Shown: piece by piece, positions 17,978 to 36,021 of the stretch
How positions within the stretch are numbered: position 1 is the first letter of the stretch
How the letters are laid out: each line of letters begins with the position of its first letter
NCBI GenBank assembly: GCA_017858255.1
Contig: JAFMBV010000027.1
Coordinates: 1-39,182 of the forward strand
Length of the DNA stretch: 39,182 nt
Source: Bacteriovoracaceae bacterium
GTDB lineage: Bacteria > Bdellovibrionota > Bacteriovoracia > Bacteriovoracales > Bacteriovoracaceae
Direction of reading: 5' to 3'
The notes under the pieces: generated by a model
What the model saw: only the letters and a program-made list of their open reading frames with translations
What the model was told of the DNA's origin: nothing
Database searches by the model: none
Translations under genes and position numbers: made by a program

Positions 17978-18050
17978 TTTTGATTTATAAAAATACTTAA
18001 CTACACTGAAAGAGCAAATAGAAAGAGACTTTAAAAGTTTCGTTTAATAG

Positions 18051-19711
18051 ATTGATATTAGAATAATTGAAGAGGGTACTCAAATTTCAGGAAACTCACT
18101 TAATAAACATATATCTGATAGACAAGCATCTCGATTTTTATCTCAAGCAGGTTTTGGGGGTCGCGAAGATTATATAAATAACCTAAAAAAATTAGGTTAT
18201 GAAGAATGGATTAATAATCAATTTAGTAGTGCTCCCAAACCATATCGACACAAATTTGCTAGTCAATTACGCTTAAAAGATTATCCTTCTTACATACACA
18301 CTGACTCTATTTCGAATATTATGTGGCAAAGCATACTTACTGGAGATGATGTCCTCCAGCAACGTGTGACATTAGCGCTCTCAGAAATATTTGTCGTAAA
18401 TTCTGAGAATTGTATTTCTGTGAAGACTAAGCCTCTATTTATGGCACATTTCATGGACCTTCTCCAAAAGCATGCTTTTGGTAACTTTTACGACTTACTA
18501 TTTGATGTCACCCTAAGTGTCCCTCTAGGAGATATGCTGGGAATACTAGGTAATTTGAAAGGAAATGCTCAGGGTAGACGACCTGATGAAAATTTTGCTC
18601 GCTAAGTGATGCAGTTATTTACGATTGGTCTATATGAATTAAATTTAGACGGTTCTCGTAAATTGAATGCTAATGGCGAGCCAATCGATACTTATAATAA
18701 CGAAACCGTGAGAAACTTGGCCAGGGTCTTTACTGGATGGACAGCAACCTACACAACTGAGCAATCAAATAAACCTATGTACCTGGTAGAAGAAAATCAT
18801 TCTTTATTAGAGAAAAGTTTCCTAGGTATTACCATTCCAGCTGGAACCCAAGGTTTAGAATCACTTAAATTAGCTCTTAAAATACTATTCAATCACCCTA
18901 ATGTAGGTCCATTCATTGGCAAACAGTTAATACGCGTTTTGTCTGTAGTAACCCAAGTCCCGAATATATTACGAGAGTTGCCAATGCATTTAATGGAGTT
19001 AATGGTGAAAAACGTGGTGAATTAAAAAATGTCATTAAGGCCATATTACTTGATAAAGAAGCACGTCAGATGCCTTCCAAAAATGATTCCTTTGCAGGAA
19101 AGCATCGAGAACCAATGATTCGCTTAGCCCAGTTGATTCGAACTCTTGACTATAGAAGTCCTGATAACAATTGGCGTATTGGAGACACCACAGATTCAAC
19201 TTGGGGAATAGGACAATCACCACAGAGTGCGAAGAATGTTTTTAATTTCTTTAGACCTAATTACGCTCCACCTGGTTCTGAAATATCAAAGAAGAAACTA
19301 GTCACACCTGAGATGCAAATAGTCACAGAAACATCGACAATTTCTCAAGCAAACTATTGGTACAAATTGTTAAATGAACCCCAACGAATAACAAAACGTA
19401 AATATTCCCTTGTTGAAAAAGGGAAATTAAGGCAACACAACCTAGTAGATGAAGAAACACCAGGCCTTTCACTTTTCTTAGAAGAAGAGAAAAGTATGGC
19501 AGTGAACCCATCGAGCTTAGTAGAGAGATTTGATACCTTATTTTCCTGTGGGCAACTCAGCAAGGCAACGAAAGAATCTATTGTTGAGAGTATTAACAAA
19601 TTACCAATAGATAGTAATGATAGCTCTGCCAGAGAAAGTTATAAAAAGAACCGAGTTATAGGAGCACTTTTAATGGTAATTACCAATCCTGAGTATATAG
19701 TACTAAAATAA
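18051..19711 (+). pseudogene. DUF1800 family protein gene, disrupted (no start, nonsense codon, frameshift)
   Basis: The three frames together read as one DUF1800 protein: RQASRFLSQAGFGG near the N-terminus, LQQRVTLALSEIFVV, then GRRPDENFAR, MQLFTIGLYELNL, VRNLARVFTGWTA, and a C-terminal part with SPQSAKNVFNFFRPNYAPPG and ALLMVITNPEYIV. It has three defects. No ATG, GTG or TTG occurs in frame between the stop at 18048 and the first conserved motif, and no signal peptide is seen. An in-frame TAA at 18603-18605 sits where relatives have the Glu of NFARE. One base is missing near 18932-18935, after which the correct protein continues in another frame. DUF1800 genes are usually paired with a DUF1501 gene, as here; the role of the family is unknown. 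Confidence 0.85.
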
Positions 19712-22417: not shown

Positions 22418-23344
22418 TCAAGAGACTCTTTTCTTGCTTATTAAATAAAGGTTACAACTTAAATTTCGCATTATATCTAGGGTCGTACTGCTAACGGTTA
22501 GATGTTCAAAAAGATAGTGGTGAGGTTTCATAATTACTAGATCTGAACTTTCTTTTTTTACCATTTCCTCTAAATAATTACCCGGCAATTTATTTAAAAT
22601 CATTTTTAAGGAATAAGTACTCTCTACCCCTTGCGCCTTAAGCTCTTTTGTTGCCCTAGCAAGCTGCTCTTCTGCATTTGAACTATATACTGTGGTTTCA
22701 GTTTTTAAAATTTCCTTTGGTGGTGGATCATCTTTAAATGCTTCAAGGTTTAATCCTACAAATTCAATAGGGACAACACAATCCAAGAATACCTTCGCAT
22801 TAGAAGCTCTAGCGATATGTGCCACAACACTTAAATCATCAAAGTTAACAGGAGCATAAGGTAATAAATAAGTGATGCTCCGTATCTCCTTCATCTCTTT
22901 TTTAATAACAAGAACATCTTTACTTAGATGAGATAGAGCTTTCTCTGCGAATGTATTTAAAAACAGCCTATGAATATTACCGTGATTAGTAGATCCTATT
23001 GAAAGAAATTCAATCTCAGGATGAGAATTTAGGTGTGCAATTCCTTCATTAATAGTTCCTTCAAAATTTTCAAAATCAAAGTCTTCTTTTTCTAAATTTA
23101 ATCTCTTCAGCTGAGAGTTAATTCTCTGTGAAACGATGACTTCTATGTCGCCACCCCAAACTGGATCAAGCTTATATTCAGTCTTTATGGCAATTGGGTG
23201 AAAAACTTTATCTATTCGGGGCGAAATCGTATCAATATGATATAGCATAGGTCTTAAATCCATTTTCTTCGCAAGCAAATAACCGGCCAATACATTCCTA
23301 TCTGAGTTTTGATAAAGGTCGGTACAGATTACGAGTCTATTCAT
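22418..23344 (-). CDS. tandem universal stress protein (UspA family)
   Basis: 308 residues forming two Usp-like domains: residues 1-150 (RLVICTDLYQNSDRNVLAGYLLAKKMDLRP..., ending in KDVLVIKKE) and about 155-308 (ITYLLPYAPVNFDDLSVVAHIA..., ending in CNLYLISKK). The ATP-binding G-x2-G-x9-G[ST] motif is incomplete in both halves: GSTNHGN is present in the first, but the second GS is not. It may therefore not bind ATP. Usp proteins act in stress and growth-arrest survival. The start ATG has AAGGAG six bases upstream, like the other genes of this cluster. It is the last gene of the minus-strand stress island. Confidence 0.85.
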   Translation of the reverse strand: MNRLVICTDLYQNSDRNVLAGYLLAKKMDLRPMLYHIDTISPRIDKVFHPIAIKTEYKLDPVWGGDIEVIVSQRINSQLKRLNLEKEDFDFENFEGTINEGIAHLNSHPEIEFLSIGSTNHGNIHRLFLNTFAEKALSHLSKDVLVIKKEMKEIRSITYLLPYAPVNFDDLSVVAHIARASNAKVFLDCVVPIEFVGLNLEAFKDDPPPKEILKTETTVYSSNAEEQLARATKELKAQGVESTYSLKMILNKLPGNYLEEMVKKESSDLVIMKPHHYLFEHLTVSSTTLDIMRNLSCNLYLISKKRVS

Positions 23345-24251: not shown

Positions 24252-24521
24252 TTATGCAAAGAGTAGTGGTAGTTCCTGATCTCTAAAGTTAACTTTCTCT
24301 GCCTGCCTAACACAATGAAGACAACAGTAAATGGTATTATCTCCCTCGACACCATGCCCGATTATCCTACATTGACAATGATGACAGCGAGGTGCCACAG
24401 CGTGGATTGCACATTCAAAAGAATCAAAGACATGAATTTTATCACTTTTCATTATTTTAAAAAAGTTCCCAGATTCATTCTTACAAACTTCACACTTTTC
24501 CATTTCCATTTCCATTTCCAT
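24252..24521 (-). CDS. small Cys/His-rich metal-binding-type protein
   Basis: 89 residues from the first ATG. Paired metal-ligand motifs occur: KCEVCKN at the N-terminus, FDSFECAIHAVAPRCHHCQCRIIGHGV in the middle, and YCCLHCVRQ near the end. The FDSFECAIHA-L/V-AP...GHG pattern occurs in a widespread small-protein family often labelled metallothionein- or zinc-finger-like; zinc binding is likely, function unknown. The gene begins with four copies of GAAATG, giving four in-frame ATG codons. The Shine-Dalgarno AGGAG is two bases from the first ATG but eight from the second (24515), so the second is the better start. It follows the CBS gene by 11 bases, in one operon. Confidence 0.82.
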   Translation of the reverse strand: MEMEMEMEKCEVCKNESGNFFKIMKSDKIHVFDSFECAIHAVAPRCHHCQCRIIGHGVEGDNTIYCCLHCVRQAEKVNFRDQELPLLFA

Positions 24522-24532: not shown

Positions 24533-25033
24533 TTAAAGATTAGCTCGAGAGCTTGCTTTTAATTGAGTCCCTCTTTTTTGAGGCTTAATCGTTTTACTTT
24601 CTTTCATTTTTTCACTTGAAAATATCTGGGACAAGTCACTCAACTCCTCACCAAGCAACATAAGAATATCATCCGAGGCAATTAAACCGACCAATTCATC
24701 GTTACTATCTATTACAGGCATGCGTCTCACACCATTTTGGCGCATTTTCACAATAGTTTGATAAATCCCATCTTCTGGTGAACACATCACAACACTTGAA
24801 GTCATGACCTTCTTTATAGAGTAGTCTGACGCGAGTTCTGGAACTTTCCCATAAGCAATGGCTATATCTCGGTCTGTGACAATACCGATGGGAATGGGCT
24901 TTGATTTCTTTGACTTATCAACGACAACGACAGTCCCAATATGATTCTTATACATAAGCTTCGCTGCTTCCTTAACTGTACCTGTGACGGGAATAGTTAT
25001 GGCCTTTGTTTTAATAATTTTGCTTAGTGACAT
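24533..25033 (-). CDS. CBS-domain pair protein
   Basis: 166 residues holding two CBS domains (about 5-62 and 74-130) and a basic Lys-rich tail. Typical CBS features are seen: ITIPVTGTVKEAAKLMYKNHIGTVVVVD, GIVTDRDIAIAYGK, then GIYQTIVKMRQNGVRRMPVID and GLIASDDILMLLGEEL. CBS pairs bind adenine nucleotides and report energy status, either alone or on a partner. The ATG has AAAGGAG six bases upstream. It is followed after 11 bases by the Cys-rich gene, and lies in the stress island with Hsp20 and Usp, as similar pairs do in other proteobacteria. Confidence 0.92.
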   Translation of the reverse strand: MSLSKIIKTKAITIPVTGTVKEAAKLMYKNHIGTVVVVDKSKKSKPIPIGIVTDRDIAIAYGKVPELASDYSIKKVMTSSVVMCSPEDGIYQTIVKMRQNGVRRMPVIDSNDELVGLIASDDILMLLGEELSDLSQIFSSEKMKESKTIKPQKRGTQLKASSRANL

Positions 25034-25203: not shown

Positions 25204-25416
25204 TTACTTAAAGCTTCCCAAACGTACTATTTCAGGGTCTTTTTTAAGCAATAAGAAAGTATTACTTTTATTACATCTTTCGCATAACTGATCCTCTTTT
25301 GATTGGACTTTAAAAAACTTACGACAGGCAGGGCACCTCTTCTTTCTAACCACCCTCACTTCCCTTTCAGGTAATAAACTAATTAGTGGGTTGTCTTGTT
25401 TTTTATTTTTATACAT
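25204..25416 (-). CDS. small zinc-ribbon-like protein
   Basis: 70 residues with two CxxC knuckles 18 residues apart (KRCPACRKF and LCERCNKS), so a one-zinc ribbon is likely. The N-terminal part is basic (EREVRVVRKKR), consistent with nucleic-acid binding. No named family is recognised. AAGGAG lies six bases before the ATG, as for the other genes of the stress island. It is 170 bases upstream of the CBS gene on the same strand, and could be the first gene of that cluster. Confidence 0.7.
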   Translation of the reverse strand: MYKNKKQDNPLISLLPEREVRVVRKKRCPACRKFFKVQSKEDQLCERCNKSNTFLLLKKDPEIVRLGSFK

Positions 25417-25959: not shown

Positions 25960-28900
25960 TTAAAGGTCTTCTTCACCCTTTTCCGCTATATATAAGTTAA
26001 CAATCACCAAATGGTCTTTACTATCATCTACTAATTTTAGTGTTAACTCATTTCCCAAGAACTCTTGATCCTTATAGATAGCATTCGGATTTAACGACTG
26101 CTTCACTTCTATTACATATAAACTTGAACCAAAACGAATCCTTAATTCAAAATTAGGTAAAGTACTTGGCAGAGAGGATTTAAAGAATAGGTGTTCTCCT
26201 TCGCGACGAAGACCTAGAATTGATTCTATAAATGCTCTGTAATACCAACTAGAGGAGCCTGTATACCAACTCCAGCCACCTTTTCCCATATGCAAAGGTG
26301 CAGAGTAAATATCAGCAGGTATAACGTAAGGTTCAATTTTGTAAACTTGTGCATTTTCTTCAGTACAAGAATGTTGGATGGGATTCAAAGTATTCATAAT
26401 ATCAAAAGCTGTATCCTCATCCCCCTCCTGTGCAAGGCCCATCGCCAACCAAATTGCAGCATGGGTATATTGACCTCCATTCTCCCGTATTCCTGGTACG
26501 TAGCCTTTAATATAGCCTGGATTTAAATCTGTCTTATCAAAGGGTGGAATAAATAAATGTACGATTGAATCTTTCTTATTAATTAAGTATTTTTTTGCTG
26601 AGTCTAGGGCCAATTTCCTGTGTTCAATATTACCAAGGTTCGAAATTGAGCTCCATGACTGAGCAATAGAATCTATTTTGCACTCATCATTGCTAGCAGA
26701 ACCCAAAGGAGTACCGTCATCAAAATAAGCACGACGATACCACTGCCCATCCCAACCAGTAGTTTCAACGGAGTCCTTTAATTTTTCAAGATGTAATGCA
26801 TAATCATTGGCCCTTTTCGAATCTCCCCGTTTTTCACAAATTTCAATGAATGATCGAAGGTTAGCACCAAGAAACCATGCCAACCAAACACTTTCACCTT
26901 TTCCTTTGTTACCTACACTACTCATTCCATCATTCCAATCCCCCGAGCCCATAAAAGGCAGTTGATGGGCGCCAAGTTTTAGGCTGCGATCAATTGCTCG
27001 AAGGCAATGTTCAAAAAGGCTACCACTACCATCGCTCTTCTCTGCTTTAATATATAGATCATCTTGACCTTCAGGGAGAAGAGGACCCTTTATAAAAGGT
27101 ATGACCTCATCTAATATTGATTCGTCACCAGTGGTTAAAACATAATGGTCAACAACAAAGGGAAGCCATAAAAGATCGTCTGAAAACCTTGTCCTTACAC
27201 CCTTTTCAATAGGTGGATGCCACCAATGAAGCACATCACCTTCTTCAAACTGGTGAGCTGCTGCTTTTAATATATGATCTCGTGCTATCATTGGATTCGA
27301 GTGAGCAAGAGCTGTCACATCCTGCAGTTGATCTCTAAAGCCATAGGCGCCACCTGATTGGTAAAAAGCGGTTCTGGCCCAAATACGACTTGATATTGTT
27401 TGATAAAGCATCCAGTGATTAATAAGAATGTCGAATTGAGGAAATGGAGTTTTTACCTGAAGCGATCCGAGAGTTTCCTCCCAAAAATTTTTAGCCTCTT
27501 TAAGTACCTGGTCCGCTTTTTTAACATCTATATTTAACTCAACAATTTCTTTAATTAGCTTACAATCTGGTACTTGGCCTAAAAGAAAAATTATCTCCTC
27601 TTCTTGTTGAGCTTCAAGCTTGCAGTCTACTTTCATTGTTAAACATGGATCCAGACCGGCGCCCATTTTTCCATCTAATTGATCATTATTAATTCCCAAA
27701 GGTCGATCATACTGACCATGCCTTCCAAAAAAGGACCTACGGTCACACGTAAAAGAAGAAACGTTCTTGCTAGAACAAGCAAATGTAGTCTTTGACCCAA
27801 AATCTTCCTGAAAATGATTTTGAGCATGAAAGACATTCTGATCAAAACCCTTTTCAGTAACTATATGGTGAGCTGTTTGAGATCGATGAAAGCCTATTAC
27901 CCATTCTAGGTAGTAGTAAACTGAGATATGCCTTTTGGTATTACTTAAATTCTTAAGTTTTAAACGAACAAACTTTAAGTCTTCCTCTAAAGAGACATAC
28001 ATAGTTAGTTTGTGAGCAACTTCTGCGTAATTATGCTCGAAGACGGTATACCCTTGCCCATGACGGACAAGATAAGGTGACATATCCCGTGCGTACCCAG
28101 GAGCAGGGGACCAAGTCTCTCCACTCTCTTGATCATAAAGATAAATAATTTCACCAGAGTGGTCGAGGACTGGATCATTATTCCACGGAGTAATACGATT
28201 TTCTCTACTATTTTCAGACCATGTATGGCTGCTTCCCGTTTCCGAAACAAGAAAACCAAACCCCCTGGAGTTGGCGATAACATTAATCCAAGGCGCAGGA
28301 GTGACTTGATTTCCCTTTAGATAAATCTGATATTCTTTCCCACCATCTTTAAAACCACCAAAACTATTAAAGAACTCTAGTTCAGGTCTTTTTACGGGAT
28401 GCTCTTTCCTACTTGGTGACTGTCTTTTACCTAATACCTTTAAAGCAGGACACTTTGTCACTTTTAATAGTTGATTCACTTGTTTTTTTAGGCTTCCCTC
28501 TTGAGTATTAAAATAGACCCTCGCCACAGACTTCAAAAAAGTAAAGTCTTCATCAGTTGTAATGTCTTTTCTAAAAAGAAATATCCCGCCCTTTTTAAAT
28601 AATAACCCTTGCCCACCAGAAGTATTAACCTGATGAAGTAACTCTTCGTGAATATCCAATCTGTAAGAACTTGATTCCTCACTAAAAATAACAAGGTCGA
28701 ATGGAATATTTTTTGCCCTTAAATACTCGTGAAATTGTAAAATATCCGTAATAAAGGAAATCTCATGTTTGTTTTTTATGAAAATTAGAAGGATTGGAAT
28801 ATCACCACTAATGCCATAGTTCCATAAGTCCTTTTGAGATTTTATATTTTTTTCTACTCGACTACTTGGAGGTCTTAACTTCGAATCTGAATAAATTAAT

Positions 28901-31900
28901 GAGCCAGCCAATTTTTGAAAAGTATTAACCTCATCAAGTTCAATATTCAGATGCTTAAGTCTAATTTGACTTTGAGTCCAAGACATTTGGTCTTCTCTCA
29001 TAAAAGTGTGGCGATCATGATATTGATCAATAAGCCTTAAGGCTTCATCACGTGATTTAGCGAGCCCTGAAACAAATATTACCTGAGTGCTTCCATACGG
29101 TGCTAATGAAACATTCGTTTTAAATGATAAGATGGGGTCCAATACACCACCCACTGTATTTGAGAGAGTGCTCCCCCCTTTTAGGCCATTCGCCTTGGAT
29201 AGGTTATTCCTCCTTCCAAGAAATTTCTCTCTGTCTGTTTCATATTGAATATTTTTACACTTTTTATGATCATAGACTATTTGATGAATACCATAAAGGT
29301 CATCCTCATCATCTGAACGCTTCCTTCTATTGGCAAGGAGAGCTGACTTTTCATTAATATATTCTGTTTGGATAAATAGCTTATTAAAAGCAGGGTGCGC
29401 TAAATCAGATTCAGGTGTAGATAGAACAGGCTCAGAATAACTTGTTAGGTCCAAAGATAGATCTTTATCAGTCACATTTGTAATTGTTATTCTTCTAAGC
29501 TCAACATTATCCTCTGCTGAAACAATAACTTCCGTATGAGTGTTAATATTTTTTTTTCGACAAAAGAACTCTACTTTATGTTCGGAGAAGATTGTCTTAT
29601 AGTCCTGCGGTTTTCGAGACATGGGCTGAAATGTCAATGGATACAACGATCCTTCGATAGTATCAAAAATAAAGAAGTATTGCCCATCCCGATCAACCGT
29701 TCTATCTTCCTCCCATCTAAAAACAGATAAATCGTCGCATTTAGAAAACCCAGACCCAGCAGCTGTAAGCATGACCGTATAGCTACCATTTGATAAAATC
29801 CTAATTTGGGGCTCTTCCGTGTGGACATGCTCAATGTGATGTAAAGTGGGTAACGATCGTGCCCTCCCGCCTGTTTTATGCAAAACCTCTTCCTCTCTAG
29901 GGTTTAGAATGGATATTCTTTGGGGAACACGCTCTTGTAGCAAAAGTTCAGAGGACTTTACGATGGGGTCATTATGAAATGCGATAGCGACCATATTTTC
30001 ATGAAGCAAATTATCAATCGCTACTAAAATCATACCCTGATGATGCGCCATAAAACTTTCAATAATAGTATAGCTTTCCTTCGGTGCTAATCTTCCTTCA
30101 GTGTAGTCTACAGCTTCAAAAAAGCCAAAATCAGTAAGTAGATTATTGGCAATTAGCCTCCTTAAATTTGCTATTGATTCTTTGGGAAGAACAAGAGATG
30201 CCAAGACCGTGGAGTATGGTGATACAACAAAGTCATTACTTAAACCCCTTTTTAATCCAAGACCTGGTACTCCAAATGGTCCATATTGATAATTGCTATT
30301 TAGGTCTCTAGCATTAAATGCTGACTCGGAAATTCCCCATGGACGATTCTGAATGCCAGCATACGCCATTTGTTGTTTAACAACCGCTACATGGGTTTCA
30401 TTTAGAAGAGTACCCAAGTAATCTTTCATAACTAATAAAGGCATTAGGTATTCAAACATTGAAGCAGACCAAGATATGAGAACCCGTTGTCGAAACAACG
30501 AAGTCATTTGCCTTCCTAGGTGAAACCAATGATTTTCTGGAACATCCCCCTTTGCTATGCTTATAAAACTAGTAAGGCGTGCTTCAGAAGCGAGAAGGTC
30601 ATAATAACTATCATCTATTTTCCCATCTCTTACGTTAAAACCAATAGTAAACAATTTTCTTTTTCTATTATAGAGAAATGAGAAATCCATATTTATAACA
30701 AAGTCATGGCATGCCTGAGCAACATCCTCACAATCATTATGAAAGGAAATCAATTGGTCTTCACTTGAAGTACTGGAAATTTCGTATTTAATTCGATTAA
30801 TTTTATCTTTAAGTTTCGATACCCAATTTGTAATTGAATTAAACTCATTTCCCCCAATATAATGGGATATTTTAATAAATTGACTATTAACAAAATTGAC
30901 CCTGCTCTCTAAACCATCTAAGAAATAAGGATTACCTTCAAATTGTTCAACCTTCATTTCACGCACATATTTAAGCATTTCGTTGATTTGAAATTTAATT
31001 GAGTCCAAATCCTTTTGGGGTGAGATAAGAACAGAACGCGTAAAATCCTCAACATCTTGTTTTAAAATTTTAATAATATCTTCGATTCCTAACAGGAGAG
31101 ATGAATACAACAATGGCGTACTTTTCACATCAAGACAGATTTGTTTGACGGCCAGTAGGTGTCCAGCAAGGTTACCACTATCAACAGTAGAGATATATTC
31201 TGGGCCCAATTGCGACAGGTCAGTGGTGTTGTACCAATTATAAAAATGCCCTAAATGACTAGGCATTTTTAACATCGTATTTAATGTATGTCGCAAGCGA
31301 GTTATTAACTCTTGGGGGCCGATATAACCAAATCTAAAAGCACTGCAAGTCGAAAGGAGATAAAGCCCAATATTGGTAGGGGAAGTCCTGTGAGCAACTA
31401 AGTCTTTTGGTACTTGCTGAAAATTATCTGGGGGGAGCCAGTTATCTTCCTCAGTAACAAAAGTCTCAAAAAAATTCCATGTTTTACAAGTTATATTCCT
31501 TAATAATTCAACATCTACCGACGGTATATCATAAGTTTCTCTTGTTCGATCTTTACTAATTTTATCTAAGATGAAGGGAGAGAAAAACCAGGTTCCAATA
31601 AAGATAAGTGAAACATACACAGAAGCTGGTTTAAAAAACAAAATGAGAAAGAAAACAACAAGAGAAAAAACCGTTGTATACCTGAAGGTTCGACTAACAA
31701 ATGACAATCCATTCTTTATGCTTGATTCAACTTGAGCCGCAGTTACCCATTCAAGCAAATTAGCTTTGGAAATAAAAACTCTGTAAAGAGTTCGTAAGAT
31801 CGCATCTATATTCAGATAAGTTTGATAAGGAAGCACTACAATTGATATAGCGAGCTGATAAGCACTTAACTTTAGGTCTTCACAGGTTCCCAATAAGTGC

Positions 31901-34587
31901 TCCACCAAAGTAAGGTTTCGAGGATACTTAAGGAGGTTGTTTGCTGTATGGACGTACAGAGGTAATGTTAAGACGGTTAATGTCAAAAATGTCCATAGCA
32001 ACGCACTCCCTGGCAACACAGTCCATCCTAAGATTAGCCAGATAAAAGTTGCAGGTGTAACCAAACTTCTTCTTAAGTTATCTAGAATTTTCCATCTTGA
32101 TATGAGGGACAGAGGACTTTTCACCAACTGATTTTTATCATTAGGTACATATGAAAAAATCCATTGAAATATTTGCCAATCGCCCCGTACCCATCGGTAG
32201 TTTCTTTTAGAAAATGGCTCATAATGTGACGGGTAGTCATCTAGGAGCTCAATATCAGAGACAAGTGCAGTACGCGAAAAAACCCCCTCAAATAGGTCGT
32301 GACTTAAGAGAGTATTTTCTGAAACTCTTTTTTTAAGAGAGGATTCAAAGGCATCAACCACATAAAGACCCTTCCCCGTATAAATACCTTCTCCAAATAA
32401 GTCCTGATAAGTATCAGAAACCGCAGTTGTATAAGGGTCAATCCCTGTGTGACCGGAATAAATTTTTGAAAAGATTGACCGTTCAGAGCTCTCGGGAGTA
32501 ATGCTGATACGAGGTTGAAGAACACTGTAACCTTTGGTAACGACTCCTGCCTTTTTATCAAACTGAGGTGAATTAAGTGGATGAAGGATAGTGCCGACAA
32601 GCTTTTGGGCAGCATTTCGTGGCAATTTTGTATCAGTATCAAGGGTAATCACATACTTCACCTCTGAGAAGAAGGTGGTATGTTCAGGAAATACATAAAA
32701 ACTTGTGTGTTTATCACCTCTTAGATAACGATTAAACTCGTGAATTTTGCCGCGTTTTCTTTCCCAGCCCATGTACTTTTTTTCACTAGGATTCCAAAGA
32801 CGTTTTCGATGAAAAAGGTAAAATCGATCTTTTTCTTTTCTATATTTTACATTTAGGTTTTCAACACCCATTTTTAAAGTCTTTATCATCTTATTATCAG
32901 AGGATATCTCTTCAAACTCAGCATCTTTAAAATCACTTAATAAAGCAAAATAGAGATTTTCGTCCTGATTGGCCAAAAAACGAATTTCTAAATCTTCCAA
33001 GAGATGAGGAACCATATCTATAGAAGTAATGATTGTTGGAACAATCACAAAAGTACGAGCATTAGTGGGAATACCATTTTCTAAATTAATCTTAGGTAAT
33101 ATAAAAGGTCCAACAAAATGAGTGACAAAGAGATTTAGGATATTAAGTCCACTGTCACTGGCAGGTAAAAAAGCTACAAGTACAACGAGAATAGACCATT
33201 TAAAATAATTGGGATTATTTAAATTTATATAGAGAACCAAAGGTATCAATAGAGAAACAGTTAATATTACCAAGAAACTGAGATAAAAGCAGGTTGGATA
33301 ATCTAAAATTAGCCTTTTTAAAGACTCTTTTATAGATGGAGAATACTGTATTTTCTTTTCTAATCCCCTAACCCCCTTTCTTACTAGATAATAACCAACA
33401 TGGTGCTTTCTCTTATCCTTGTCTCTTTCCCTGCTAGCTTTTTGGGCCATACGTATCGCCTCTTGGGCGATTTTAATTTCTCCAAAGCCTGTTTTCTTGT
33501 GAATTCTCTCTATGGCATTACGATATTGATCACGACTCGAAAAAGTCATACTCTTATAAGAACGCAAGGGATCTTGGGCCAATATAGATTCAACAAGTGA
33601 TAAGCTTTCGAAAAACTCTTGCCAATCAGAATGAGATAAGAGCCTCATACTTGTGATAATATTGCTAACAGTTACCTGTGCAATAATTTGCAATTGGTGC
33701 TCGTTTTTAACAATTTCTTCTATATTTATATTTTTTTCAGCTAAATATTCATTAATATATTGTTTATCTGAACCCACCTCAAGACTACGGCTATGCTGTA
33801 TTTGTGATAATTGGGATATAGTGGAGCAGTCACATATATGAGATTTCCCTAGAATTTGGGATAATTCATCGGTTAGCATTTTAACATTGGCCATCGAACT
33901 ATCTTCATTATCCAATAGTGTTTCGGTTAATATATCGACTTTTCTCTTCATCTCCTGACAAATAACAATCTCATCAGCGACTCGCCTTAAGTTTTCGATC
34001 AAAGCGATTCTTAGGGCAATTGGTATCGCCCAAAGCTCACCAATAAGAAGAGGAGAAACACTTTGATAGGAATGAACAAATCTTTTGACTGTTCCAATTT
34101 CTATATGACTATCTAAATGGGCAACCAAAGTTAAAGCGATGGCATATACACGGGGAAAACCAGCTAAGTTTCCATCTTTAGTTTTTGGTAGTTCCAAATA
34201 ATACTTTACTGGAAGGTCTTCTTTAATCTCACGGATCTGATCTTCAATAGTATGAAAGTTATCAATAATCCATTCACCTGCTGGTGAAAGATCAATCCCT
34301 TCCTTAGCCCATTCTGTTAACTTACGATAAGCTCCCTTTAAAGACTGACTATTTTCTTTAACCCTTGGGAGAAGAGAGACTCCTTTCTTTTTTTCACTCG
34401 TCACTGATAATTCTGAGGCCAAAAACCTAGCATACTTCTCCAAGCGCTCAGGGCTAAAAATTTCATCACGTATTGGGTTTTCAAGACTCATAGATTCAAT
34501 GATTGAGCCTTCTTTATATTGAAACACTGACTTATGCCTTTGAGAAAGATTGCGATATTCAAGATACCTTTTAACATTCTTAGTCAT
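25960..34587 (-). CDS. ndvB: cyclic beta-1,2-glucan synthase (NdvB/ChvB type; GT84 + GH94)
   Basis: 2875 residues, close to the 2830-2870 of rhizobial and Brucella enzymes. The N-terminal region has the family motifs LSPAGEWIIDNF and GELWAIPIALRIALIENLRRVA. Membrane segments near 430-490 precede the GT84 domain, with TLDTDTKLPRNAAQKLVGT (Asp650, Asp652) and WVRGDWQIFQW (799-809), which polymerises UDP-glucose on the protein. More membrane helices (about 840-1030), a glycoamylase-like domain (about 1300-1540), two supersandwich domains (near 1600 and 2080) and a C-terminal GH94 phosphorylase domain follow. The latter has HWWHPP, GSGDWNDGMSSVG (Asp2550/Asp2553) and GGWSWYTGSSSWYYRA, and sets chain length. 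The product is a periplasmic cyclic glucan. No NdvA/ChvA-type exporter or glucan-modifying gene is next to it. The frame is intact throughout. Confidence 0.95.
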   Translation of the reverse strand: MTKNVKRYLEYRNLSQRHKSVFQYKEGSIIESMSLENPIRDEIFSPERLEKYARFLASELSVTSEKKKGVSLLPRVKENSQSLKGAYRKLTEWAKEGIDLSPAGEWIIDNFHTIEDQIREIKEDLPVKYYLELPKTKDGNLAGFPRVYAIALTLVAHLDSHIEIGTVKRFVHSYQSVSPLLIGELWAIPIALRIALIENLRRVADEIVICQEMKRKVDILTETLLDNEDSSMANVKMLTDELSQILGKSHICDCSTISQLSQIQHSRSLEVGSDKQYINEYLAEKNINIEEIVKNEHQLQIIAQVTVSNIITSMRLLSHSDWQEFFESLSLVESILAQDPLRSYKSMTFSSRDQYRNAIERIHKKTGFGEIKIAQEAIRMAQKASRERDKDKRKHHVGYYLVRKGVRGLEKKIQYSPSIKESLKRLILDYPTCFYLSFLVILTVSLLIPLVLYINLNNPNYFKWSILVVLVAFLPASDSGLNILNLFVTHFVGPFILPKINLENGIPTNARTFVIVPTIITSIDMVPHLLEDLEIRFLANQDENLYFALLSDFKDAEFEEISSDNKMIKTLKMGVENLNVKYRKEKDRFYLFHRKRLWNPSEKKYMGWERKRGKIHEFNRYLRGDKHTSFYVFPEHTTFFSEVKYVITLDTDTKLPRNAAQKLVGTILHPLNSPQFDKKAGVVTKGYSVLQPRISITPESSERSIFSKIYSGHTGIDPYTTAVSDTYQDLFGEGIYTGKGLYVVDAFESSLKKRVSENTLLSHDLFEGVFSRTALVSDIELLDDYPSHYEPFSKRNYRWVRGDWQIFQWIFSYVPNDKNQLVKSPLSLISRWKILDNLRRSLVTPATFIWLILGWTVLPGSALLWTFLTLTVLTLPLYVHTANNLLKYPRNLTLVEHLLGTCEDLKLSAYQLAISIVVLPYQTYLNIDAILRTLYRVFISKANLLEWVTAAQVESSIKNGLSFVSRTFRYTTVFSLVVFFLILFFKPASVYVSLIFIGTWFFSPFILDKISKDRTRETYDIPSVDVELLRNITCKTWNFFETFVTEEDNWLPPDNFQQVPKDLVAHRTSPTNIGLYLLSTCSAFRFGYIGPQELITRLRHTLNTMLKMPSHLGHFYNWYNTTDLSQLGPEYISTVDSGNLAGHLLAVKQICLDVKSTPLLYSSLLLGIEDIIKILKQDVEDFTRSVLISPQKDLDSIKFQINEMLKYVREMKVEQFEGNPYFLDGLESRVNFVNSQFIKISHYIGGNEFNSITNWVSKLKDKINRIKYEISSTSSEDQLISFHNDCEDVAQACHDFVINMDFSFLYNRKRKLFTIGFNVRDGKIDDSYYDLLASEARLTSFISIAKGDVPENHWFHLGRQMTSLFRQRVLISWSASMFEYLMPLLVMKDYLGTLLNETHVAVVKQQMAYAGIQNRPWGISESAFNARDLNSNYQYGPFGVPGLGLKRGLSNDFVVSPYSTVLASLVLPKESIANLRRLIANNLLTDFGFFEAVDYTEGRLAPKESYTIIESFMAHHQGMILVAIDNLLHENMVAIAFHNDPIVKSSELLLQERVPQRISILNPREEEVLHKTGGRARSLPTLHHIEHVHTEEPQIRILSNGSYTVMLTAAGSGFSKCDDLSVFRWEEDRTVDRDGQYFFIFDTIEGSLYPLTFQPMSRKPQDYKTIFSEHKVEFFCRKKNINTHTEVIVSAEDNVELRRITITNVTDKDLSLDLTSYSEPVLSTPESDLAHPAFNKLFIQTEYINEKSALLANRRKRSDDEDDLYGIHQIVYDHKKCKNIQYETDREKFLGRRNNLSKANGLKGGSTLSNTVGGVLDPILSFKTNVSLAPYGSTQVIFVSGLAKSRDEALRLIDQYHDRHTFMREDQMSWTQSQIRLKHLNIELDEVNTFQKLAGSLIYSDSKLRPPSSRVEKNIKSQKDLWNYGISGDIPILLIFIKNKHEISFITDILQFHEYLRAKNIPFDLVIFSEESSSYRLDIHEELLHQVNTSGGQGLLFKKGGIFLFRKDITTDEDFTFLKSVARVYFNTQEGSLKKQVNQLLKVTKCPALKVLGKRQSPSRKEHPVKRPELEFFNSFGGFKDGGKEYQIYLKGNQVTPAPWINVIANSRGFGFLVSETGSSHTWSENSRENRITPWNNDPVLDHSGEIIYLYDQESGETWSPAPGYARDMSPYLVRHGQGYTVFEHNYAEVAHKLTMYVSLEEDLKFVRLKLKNLSNTKRHISVYYYLEWVIGFHRSQTAHHIVTEKGFDQNVFHAQNHFQEDFGSKTTFACSSKNVSSFTCDRRSFFGRHGQYDRPLGINNDQLDGKMGAGLDPCLTMKVDCKLEAQQEEEIIFLLGQVPDCKLIKEIVELNIDVKKADQVLKEAKNFWEETLGSLQVKTPFPQFDILINHWMLYQTISSRIWARTAFYQSGGAYGFRDQLQDVTALAHSNPMIARDHILKAAAHQFEEGDVLHWWHPPIEKGVRTRFSDDLLWLPFVVDHYVLTTGDESILDEVIPFIKGPLLPEGQDDLYIKAEKSDGSGSLFEHCLRAIDRSLKLGAHQLPFMGSGDWNDGMSSVGNKGKGESVWLAWFLGANLRSFIEICEKRGDSKRANDYALHLEKLKDSVETTGWDGQWYRRAYFDDGTPLGSASNDECKIDSIAQSWSSISNLGNIEHRKLALDSAKKYLINKKDSIVHLFIPPFDKTDLNPGYIKGYVPGIRENGGQYTHAAIWLAMGLAQEGDEDTAFDIMNTLNPIQHSCTEENAQVYKIEPYVIPADIYSAPLHMGKGGWSWYTGSSSWYYRAFIESILGLRREGEHLFFKSSLPSTLPNFELRIRFGSSLYVIEVKQSLNPNAIYKDQEFLGNELTLKLVDDSKDHLVIVNLYIAEKGEEDL

Positions 34588-34824: not shown

Positions 34825-36021
34825 CTAGCTTGTCGGAATATCCTTTATATCTAGTTTTTTCATTTTTGGACTTCTTCTCTTTCGTGTTTTTTCAGGAATC
34901 AAATCTTTCATTGATTCTAGTTTACCAAAACACAACAGCCTATCATCTGAATGTAATTCTCTACTAGGCTTTGGATTTGGTATTACTTTTCCATCTCGGT
35001 GGAGTGTCAGTACATTTATGTCTTTTTCATTTAGACCGGAGTCAGTAATAGTTTTACCAACATATTCAGAGCATTCAGGAATATAAATTTCTGTTACTCC
35101 ATACCCCTTACTAACAGATAGCTTTTGCCTTAGATCAATTTCAGGAAAATCTACTTGAGCTGCAATATATTCGATAAAAGCACCAGCGATATCAAGTCCC
35201 GTACATCCTTCAATACCTTCTAGACCAGGTGATGAATTAATTTCCATAATCTGTGGACCATCTTTCCCTTCAAGCATATCAACACCAGCAATGCCAAGCC
35301 CCATTAGTTTGGTAGCTCGGATAGCGGTTTCCTTGTATTCCTCATCAAGTTCCACGGCTTCTGTAAGTCCACCTCTGTGAACATTACTTCTAAATTCCTG
35401 CCCTTGAGCTACGCGCCTCATTGCCGCGACCACACGGTCCCCAACAACTATCGCTCTCACGTCTTTCCCCTTACTTTCAGCAACAAACTTCTGGATAAGT
35501 ACGTTTTGTTTCTGACTTTGAAGTAGTTCAATTATAGAAGTGGCCATTTCAATCGTGTGTGCAAGTAAAACCCCTATCCCTTGAGTTCCCTCTAAAAGCT
35601 TAATAACAACGGGGGCACCACCCACTCTTTCAATGGCAGGCAATACATCGGCCTTATCCTTCACAAAAGTAGTCGCTGGTATTCCTATTTTATGCTTACT
35701 TAAGATTTGAAAACTTCTTAGCTTGTCTCTAGAATTTAAAATTCCATCGGCAGAGTTAGCACTATATATGTCCATTTGTTGAAATTGGCGCACAATCGCC
35801 GTCCCAAAATAAGTAAGAGAGGCACCGATTCGCGGTAGAACAGCATCATAATGAGTTAATCTTTTTTGCTTAAAATAAAGGTCAGGATTTTCTTCTTCCA
35901 AATCAATTGCGAATTTTAGAGTGTTTAAGACCTTAACTGAGTGACCTCGTTTTTTACACGCCTCTACTAAGCGCTTGGTACTGTAGTTATTTGGCTCTTT
36001 TGATAAGATCGCTAATTTCAT
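34825..36021 (-). CDS. RimK-like ATP-grasp ligase fused to a C-terminal RCK_C domain
   Basis: 398 residues, about 100 longer than E. coli RimK. Residues 1-295 are a RimK-type alpha-L-glutamate ligase: KLAILSKEPNNYSTKRLVEA, the LPRIGASLTYFGTAIVRQF segment, VVIKLLEGTQGIGV in the ATP-grasp, RAIVVGDRVVAAMRR, and MEINSSPGLEGIE with Glu260 and Asn262 for magnesium. Such enzymes add Glu to protein C-termini (RpsF in E. coli) or to small molecules. Residues about 307-367 (VTEIYIPECSEYVGKTI, then RELHSDDRLLCFG) read as an RCK_C/TrkA-C ligand-binding domain, usually found in potassium transport regulators. A basic tail (KTRKRRSPKMKK) ends the protein. It is 75 bases downstream of the CorC-type gene, so probably co-transcribed. 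Confidence 0.87.
   Translation of the reverse strand: MKLAILSKEPNNYSTKRLVEACKKRGHSVKVLNTLKFAIDLEEENPDLYFKQKRLTHYDAVLPRIGASLTYFGTAIVRQFQQMDIYSANSADGILNSRDKLRSFQILSKHKIGIPATTFVKDKADVLPAIERVGGAPVVIKLLEGTQGIGVLLAHTIEMATSIIELLQSQKQNVLIQKFVAESKGKDVRAIVVGDRVVAAMRRVAQGQEFRSNVHRGGLTEAVELDEEYKETAIRATKLMGLGIAGVDMLEGKDGPQIMEINSSPGLEGIEGCTGLDIAGAFIEYIAAQVDFPEIDLRQKLSVSKGYGVTEIYIPECSEYVGKTITDSGLNEKDINVLTLHRDGKVIPNPKPSRELHSDDRLLCFGKLESMKDLIPEKTRKRRSPKMKKLDIKDIPTS

Follow-up and report, generated by a model that had tools for sequence, protein, structure and literature searches.

The window analysed here, a stretch of 39,182 nucleotides that makes up an entire contig of a 4.08-Mb, 98% complete genome of the phylum Bdellovibrionota, catalogued as Bacteriovoracaceae (a family name that may be loose), carries a cyclic beta-1,2-glucan synthase (CGS) which is a standard, complete and intact member of a known family and which, to judge from its domains and conserved residues, is probably a working enzyme. 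The explanation that we favour as a whole, and consider likely, is that a working CGS makes a glucan which would be exported by a general ABC exporter and play an osmoregulated periplasmic role, its gene being an accessory trait that is lost and exchanged among the Bdellovibrionota. The gene and its regions are laid out as follows.

25960..34587, minus strand: cyclic beta-1,2-glucan synthase, whole gene, called from the open reading frame (ORF), Pfam, alignment with Agrobacterium Cgs and residues
33328..34587, minus strand: N-terminal scaffold region, about aa 1-420, an approximate boundary set by analogy with Agrobacterium Cgs
32083..33135, minus strand: GT84 glycosyltransferase region, about aa 485-835 (approximate), with D552, R610, D650, D652, D764, R798-W799 and R801
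32431..32433, minus strand: Y719, counterpart by alignment of the autoglycosylated primer tyrosine Y694
29878..31554, minus strand: GH189 cyclisation domain, about aa 1012-1570 (approximate), with E1335 (acid/base), E1421 (nucleophile), H1515-H1516, S1133 and D1136
25963..29877, minus strand: GH94 phosphorylase half, about aa 1571-2875 (approximate), with D2419 and D2553

The gene is a single ORF of 2875 aa on the minus strand (25960-34587), with an ATG start and no internal stops. Translation may in truth begin about 30 codons downstream of this ATG, since homologues match only from near aa 35. Pfam searches placed the Glycoamylase model (PF10091, best stretch aa 1328-1538), two stretches of the GH94 supersandwich model (PF06165) and the GH94 catalytic model (PF17167, aa 2368-2792) on the protein, and the synthase was the single gene in the genome matched by PF06165 and PF10091. 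The GT84 part drew no Pfam match at E 0.001 and the protein no NCBIfam match; the solved Agrobacterium Cgs (8rf0/8rf9) aligns to aa 73-2822 with 2101 bits, the GT84 part included. Hydropathy peaks flank GT84 at aa 426-484, 841-880 and 966-1008, at a resolution that does not separate single helices, and further peaks were observed at aa 177-198, 512-530 and 1369-1387.

Seventeen residue positions were chosen from PMC10901819 and PMC10834661. In GT84 these are six that bind UDP or take part in catalysis, a pair of arginines close to the gating loop and the primer tyrosine; in the cyclase, five residues and the serine found in place of a GH144 aspartate; and in GH94, two aspartates. The Agrobacterium residue numbers were counted by hand along the alignments. 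All 17 were identical in 111 of 111 sequences (41/41 Bdellovibrionota, 70/70 others). These sequences, which also underlie the CGS tree, were drawn from 121 loci after leaving out L042 and L072 (no synthase after the ORF filter), L131 and L140 (duplicates of L014 and L065) and six sequences shorter than 2500 aa. The GT84 catalytic and UDP-binding residues (D552, D650, D652, D764, R798-W799), the primer tyrosine (Y719), the GH189 nucleophile (E1421) and acid/base (E1335) and the GH94 aspartates (D2419, D2553) are all kept in the window's synthase. The initial annotation had named missing GT84 or GH94 active residues as the observation that would count against it; none is missing from the window's synthase or from its 110 aligned relatives, in which every checked residue for catalysis, UDP binding, priming, cyclisation and phosphorolysis is in place. 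Its claim of a complete CGS is borne out by the single open frame, the Pfam domains, the full-length Cgs alignment and the 17 residues, and with every checked residue in place a broken or partial synthase is ruled out.

According to the available excerpts of PMC10901819, substitutions in the GT and CY sites of Agrobacterium Cgs, as well as Y694A, abolish function in a low-osmolarity growth assay, while the GH94 substitution D2528A has a minor effect; the excerpts of PMC10834661 describe E1442 mutants of the Thermoanaerobacter italicus enzyme as inactive and E1356A as nearly so. By analogy, the GH94 catalytic residue would weigh little as evidence, being of little consequence for Agrobacterium function. 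Liposomes with purified Agrobacterium Cgs convert UDP-glucose to cyclic glucan (PMC10901819, same excerpts), so that one gene suffices for synthesis.

In a direct comparison, made with the Agrobacterium protein alone, the synthase resembles Cgs in length, domain order, all checked residues and single-chain architecture. It differs from the Agrobacterium-type system in belonging to a Bdellovibrionota clan and in having neither a ChvA/NdvA/Cgt partner above cut-off nor an OpgC_C gene. TiCGS, the GH189 reference from the Gram-positive Thermoanaerobacter italicus, shares the nucleophile, acid/base and paired histidines; its cyclase domain aligned with ours in two stretches, the middle of the domain remaining unaligned. 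The osmoregulated periplasmic glucans that enterobacteria make with OpgGH would share the role, but these enzymes are unrelated to CGS, and OpgG/MdoG was found in none of the 39 genomes searched, the window's genome included.

We infer the following scheme for the synthase. Its GT84 domain would prime itself on Tyr719 and extend a beta-1,2-glucan from UDP-glucose within the cytoplasm, the GH94 phosphorylase would trim the chain, and the GH189 domain would cut it off the primer and close the ring. The ring would then pass to the periplasm via one of the general ABC exporters of the cell, which we propose because no dedicated ChvA/NdvA is recognisable, and take on the part of an osmoregulated periplasmic glucan there, OpgG having gone unfound in this lineage. 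The most likely role of the product is to counter low osmolarity or stress on the envelope from within the periplasm; neither its linkage nor its ring size can be told from the sequence.

The best match of the ChvA model in the window's genome scored 271 bits against a cut-off of 585.4, so that the search for an NdvA-like exporter elsewhere in the genome, suggested earlier, yielded nothing above that mark. No match above cut-off was seen in any of eight genomes, nor in 14 control genomes, a set that held no positive control. Matches below the cut-off occurred in all 14 controls; since they are present in every control and above cut-off in none, we take them to be general ABC exporters. The five ABC exporters of the window's genome recognise each other at E below 1e-47; with these five as queries on the flanks, an ABC exporter gene stood beside the synthase in 0 of 119 loci (83 with at least 4 kb on both sides; two loci in both counts are duplicates). 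Standing without an adjacent exporter is therefore true of our gene, as had been remarked, but is no peculiarity, being usual for CGS loci. Three of the five exporters (C44, C9 and C128) have close counterparts in genus-mates both with and without CGS, and for C155 and C5 a comparison with 26 loci from other genomes, to which three additional matches from such genomes and the second C128 protein did not belong, gave no close counterpart. The NCBIfam cut-off for ChvA or a glucan exporter was reached by none of the four exporters scored (all except C128), and no exporter tracking the synthase could be named among the five. As regards decoration, OpgC_C (PF10129) was absent from all eight genomes; other succinyltransferases may still be present, since among the controls this model matches Methanosarcina only and not E. 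coli.

Around the synthase, listed from upstream to downstream, lie the following genes.

34825..36021, minus strand: RimK-type ATP-grasp ligase with TrkA_C, 398 aa, 238 bp upstream of the synthase
25205-25416: a protein of 70 aa carrying two CXXC pairs, placed between the genes for the synthase and the CBS protein and too small to enter the ORF list
24533..25033, minus strand: protein with two CBS domains
24252..24521, minus strand: 89-aa protein without a family, a relative of which lies between FtsH and CGS in L144
23652..24134, minus strand: HSP20 small heat shock protein
22418..23344, minus strand: Usp-like protein of 308 aa in the stress neighbourhood

Further upstream on this strand come the genes for a CNNM protein and for a PEP carboxylase that the end of the contig truncates. 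The initial annotation had described a lone gene beside a stress island, and both descriptions agree with what we observe: no recognisable exporter, modifying or degrading gene stands beside the synthase in the window, where several proteins match no family, and HSP20, CBS and Usp-like genes are close by. Elsewhere in the window a DUF1800 gene (17978-19711) looks broken, one domain being split over two frames (18606-19025 and 19070-19711), and the sequence preceding these pieces contains many stops in the one frame read.

These neighbours give rise to an alternative which we think rather unlikely, namely that the synthase is a stress-island gene moving with HSP20/Usp/CBS/FtsH-type genes, its glucan serving survival between meals or under heat or envelope stress and not osmotic balance. 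HSP20 lies within 6 kb of CGS in four of 21 family loci (the window, L145, L156 and L169) where genome-wide counts predict 0.18. In L169 the synthase has HSP20, Usp, a CBS protein and a phosphoribosyltransferase all within 4 kb, and FtsH and DJ-1 each adjoin CGS in 4 of 41 phylum loci. However, L156 and L169 (genus g39) represent one shared arrangement and the window itself prompted the test; with the count reduced to the two remaining independent cases, p is about 0.015, for counts that differ in method, the flanks being searched by phmmer and the genomes by a Pfam model. All four DJ-1 loci belong to genus g15, and the FtsH and DJ-1 frequencies stand without a genome-wide background. A Pfam scan of the 21 family loci, which covered 121 proteins close to CGS and not the 116 from other families, recovered only two HSP20, two Usp, two CBS and four DJ-1 proteins. 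BLAST clustering of the 41 phylum loci, mostly with 5-6 kb of flank, gave no non-synthase family common to more than four, and HSP20, Usp, CBS, FtsH and DJ-1 were found in 0 of 76 loci outside the phylum, in a search of variable flanks with proteins from Bdellovibrionota as queries. The stress genes beside the synthase are thus real, and their recurrence is weak to moderate (two independent further cases). Other neighbours were also noted: a GH16-domain protein and a Gcw_chp protein flank the synthase in L156 and L169, and a phospholipase A1 family gene adjoins it in three family loci (L149, L150 and L153).

On the upstream side, RimK matches of similar length and near-full coverage were found in four genus-mates (G001, G002, G003 and G006), other strong matches being frames of about 300-330 aa that mostly end before the TrkA_C part. 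CGS is absent from the 20-kb stretches that hold the counterparts in G002 and G006, and the counterparts in G003 and G001 sit on contigs of 5.3 and 3.6 kb. Since gene order around RimK is not kept (CNNM follows RimK in G002 and precedes it in the window), an insertion at this site cannot be demonstrated by an empty-site comparison.

Synthase matches were present in two of seven genomes of the genus, in 8 of 39 relatives, two of which match in GH94 alone, in 39 of 129 genomes of the family (19 of the 73 better ones) and in 74 of 339 genomes across the phylum. The family and phylum counts scored at most two candidates per genome and may underestimate both carriers and second copies; under this scoring no genome in the phylum scan had two full-length copies. 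Among the 74 phylum matches, 40 of whose loci were fetched with flanks, seven are GH94-only (G027, G035, G043, G049, G064, G068 and G072), G337 lacks GT84 and others are partial, with N-terminal pieces only in G199 and in G255, where the frame runs off the contig. The G337 locus (L224, 359-5065) has a 1568-aa frame with cyclase and GH94 parts and no GT84 match, and is synthase-like without the polymerising domain. The synthase is not rare in the family, though it is carried by a minority of species. Outside the phylum there are at least 596 confirmed relatives among named genomes, the best 80 of which span at least 10 phyla, including Pseudomonadota, Myxococcota, Bacteroidota, Bacillota and Verrucomicrobiota. 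Our lineage is indeed distant from rhizobia, as had been suggested, but to call the enzyme best known from rhizobia and their like overstates the case, since it is common elsewhere. The excerpts of a glacier study (PMC10876117) report that metagenome-assembled genomes from several phyla carry it for osmotic adaptation; Bdellovibrionota is not one of the phyla they name.

In a FastTree phylogeny of the 111 sequences, whose rows come from genera other than Agrobacterium, Rhizobium and Brucella, the Bdellovibrionota synthases form two clans, of 30 and of 11. The clan of 30, which includes the window, is entirely Bdellovibrionota and stands apart from the alphaproteobacteria-rich clan; the clan of 11 has as its sister a clan of 22, of which 12 are alphaproteobacterial. 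The L156 synthase forms a single long end branch of this tree. An rpoB tree of 24 genomes (30 carriers were tried and 24 yielded rpoB, neither G002 nor G304 being one of these) recovers the window's family f1 (11 rows), f6 (6) and f7 (3) each as one clade, f1 and f6 with support 100. The CGS tree of the same genomes rejects a single clade for f1 (p-AU 9e-44) and f6 (p-AU 4e-7), while f7 stays one clade; this AU test was post hoc, the family split having been seen already in the 111-sequence tree, and used one matrix and a quick tree in which 12 of 24 rows have an uneven amino-acid make-up. Pairwise identities point the same way: G000, the window's genome, and its genus-mate G002 are 91% identical in RimK, 79% in CNNM and, for three ABC exporters, 85-91%, yet their synthases share 59%, whereas G304, of another genus, has the best CGS match to G000 (70%) with 59% in an MsbA-like exporter.

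Since rpoB groups f1, the CGS tree rejects f1 and the best CGS match lies in another genus, these comparisons suggest that the synthase has probably moved between Bdellovibrionota families. Old duplication with loss could account for part of the conflict, as second copies may be missed when at most two candidates are scored per genome; exchange between lineages explains it best. The GC content of the synthase (0.370) is close to that of the other window genes (0.379 +/- 0.030), and because base composition is unremarkable, the transfer would be either not very recent or from a similar genome. Of the transfer proposed by the initial annotation, the part that stands is exchange within the phylum, whereas a recent import from rhizobia-like bacteria does not fit the clan of 30 or the composition.

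The phylum includes bacterial predators, and carriers also occur in groups f6 and f7, which might suggest that the synthase is a predation factor, for example one that protects the predator or acts on the prey periplasm; we consider this improbable, as the synthase went unmatched in 90 of 129 family genomes and in five of seven genus genomes. Since only two of seven genus members carry it, the gene is unlikely to be needed for predation. A recent transfer from rhizobia or other Alphaproteobacteria is most improbable, since the window's clan holds 29 other Bdellovibrionota sequences and none from elsewhere (outside the phylum, the best 80 of at least 596 relatives were compared), the GC content is unremarkable, and the old link to Alphaproteobacteria seen for the clan of 11 concerns a type to which the window does not belong.

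Most work on cyclic glucans has dealt with their part in symbiosis and virulence, in rhizobia and Brucella. A full-text search with Bdellovibrio and glucan terms, covering few subscription journals, gave no literature on CGS in Bdellovibrionota among the matches listed; papers holding both Bdellovibrio and glucan words concern, in the excerpts available, the synthases of other organisms, and glucan and related words are absent from PMC11656739 and PMC12827227. Our findings show the synthase to be spread through a phylum known for bacterial predators. Its exchange pattern there is interesting, though not startling: the patchy distribution allows closely related bacteria that have or lack the gene to be compared, so that the use of the glucan outside a plant or animal host can be tested and its exit without ChvA studied. 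We put forward only tentatively, as a possibility less likely than not to hold in full, that the Bdellovibrionota CGS is a freely exchanged stand-alone survival gene, one 8.6-kb gene amounting to a whole periplasmic-glucan pathway, which would use a resident, non-dedicated ABC exporter and tend to settle beside stress genes. If this is true, a cell could gain or lose the entire pathway by moving one gene.
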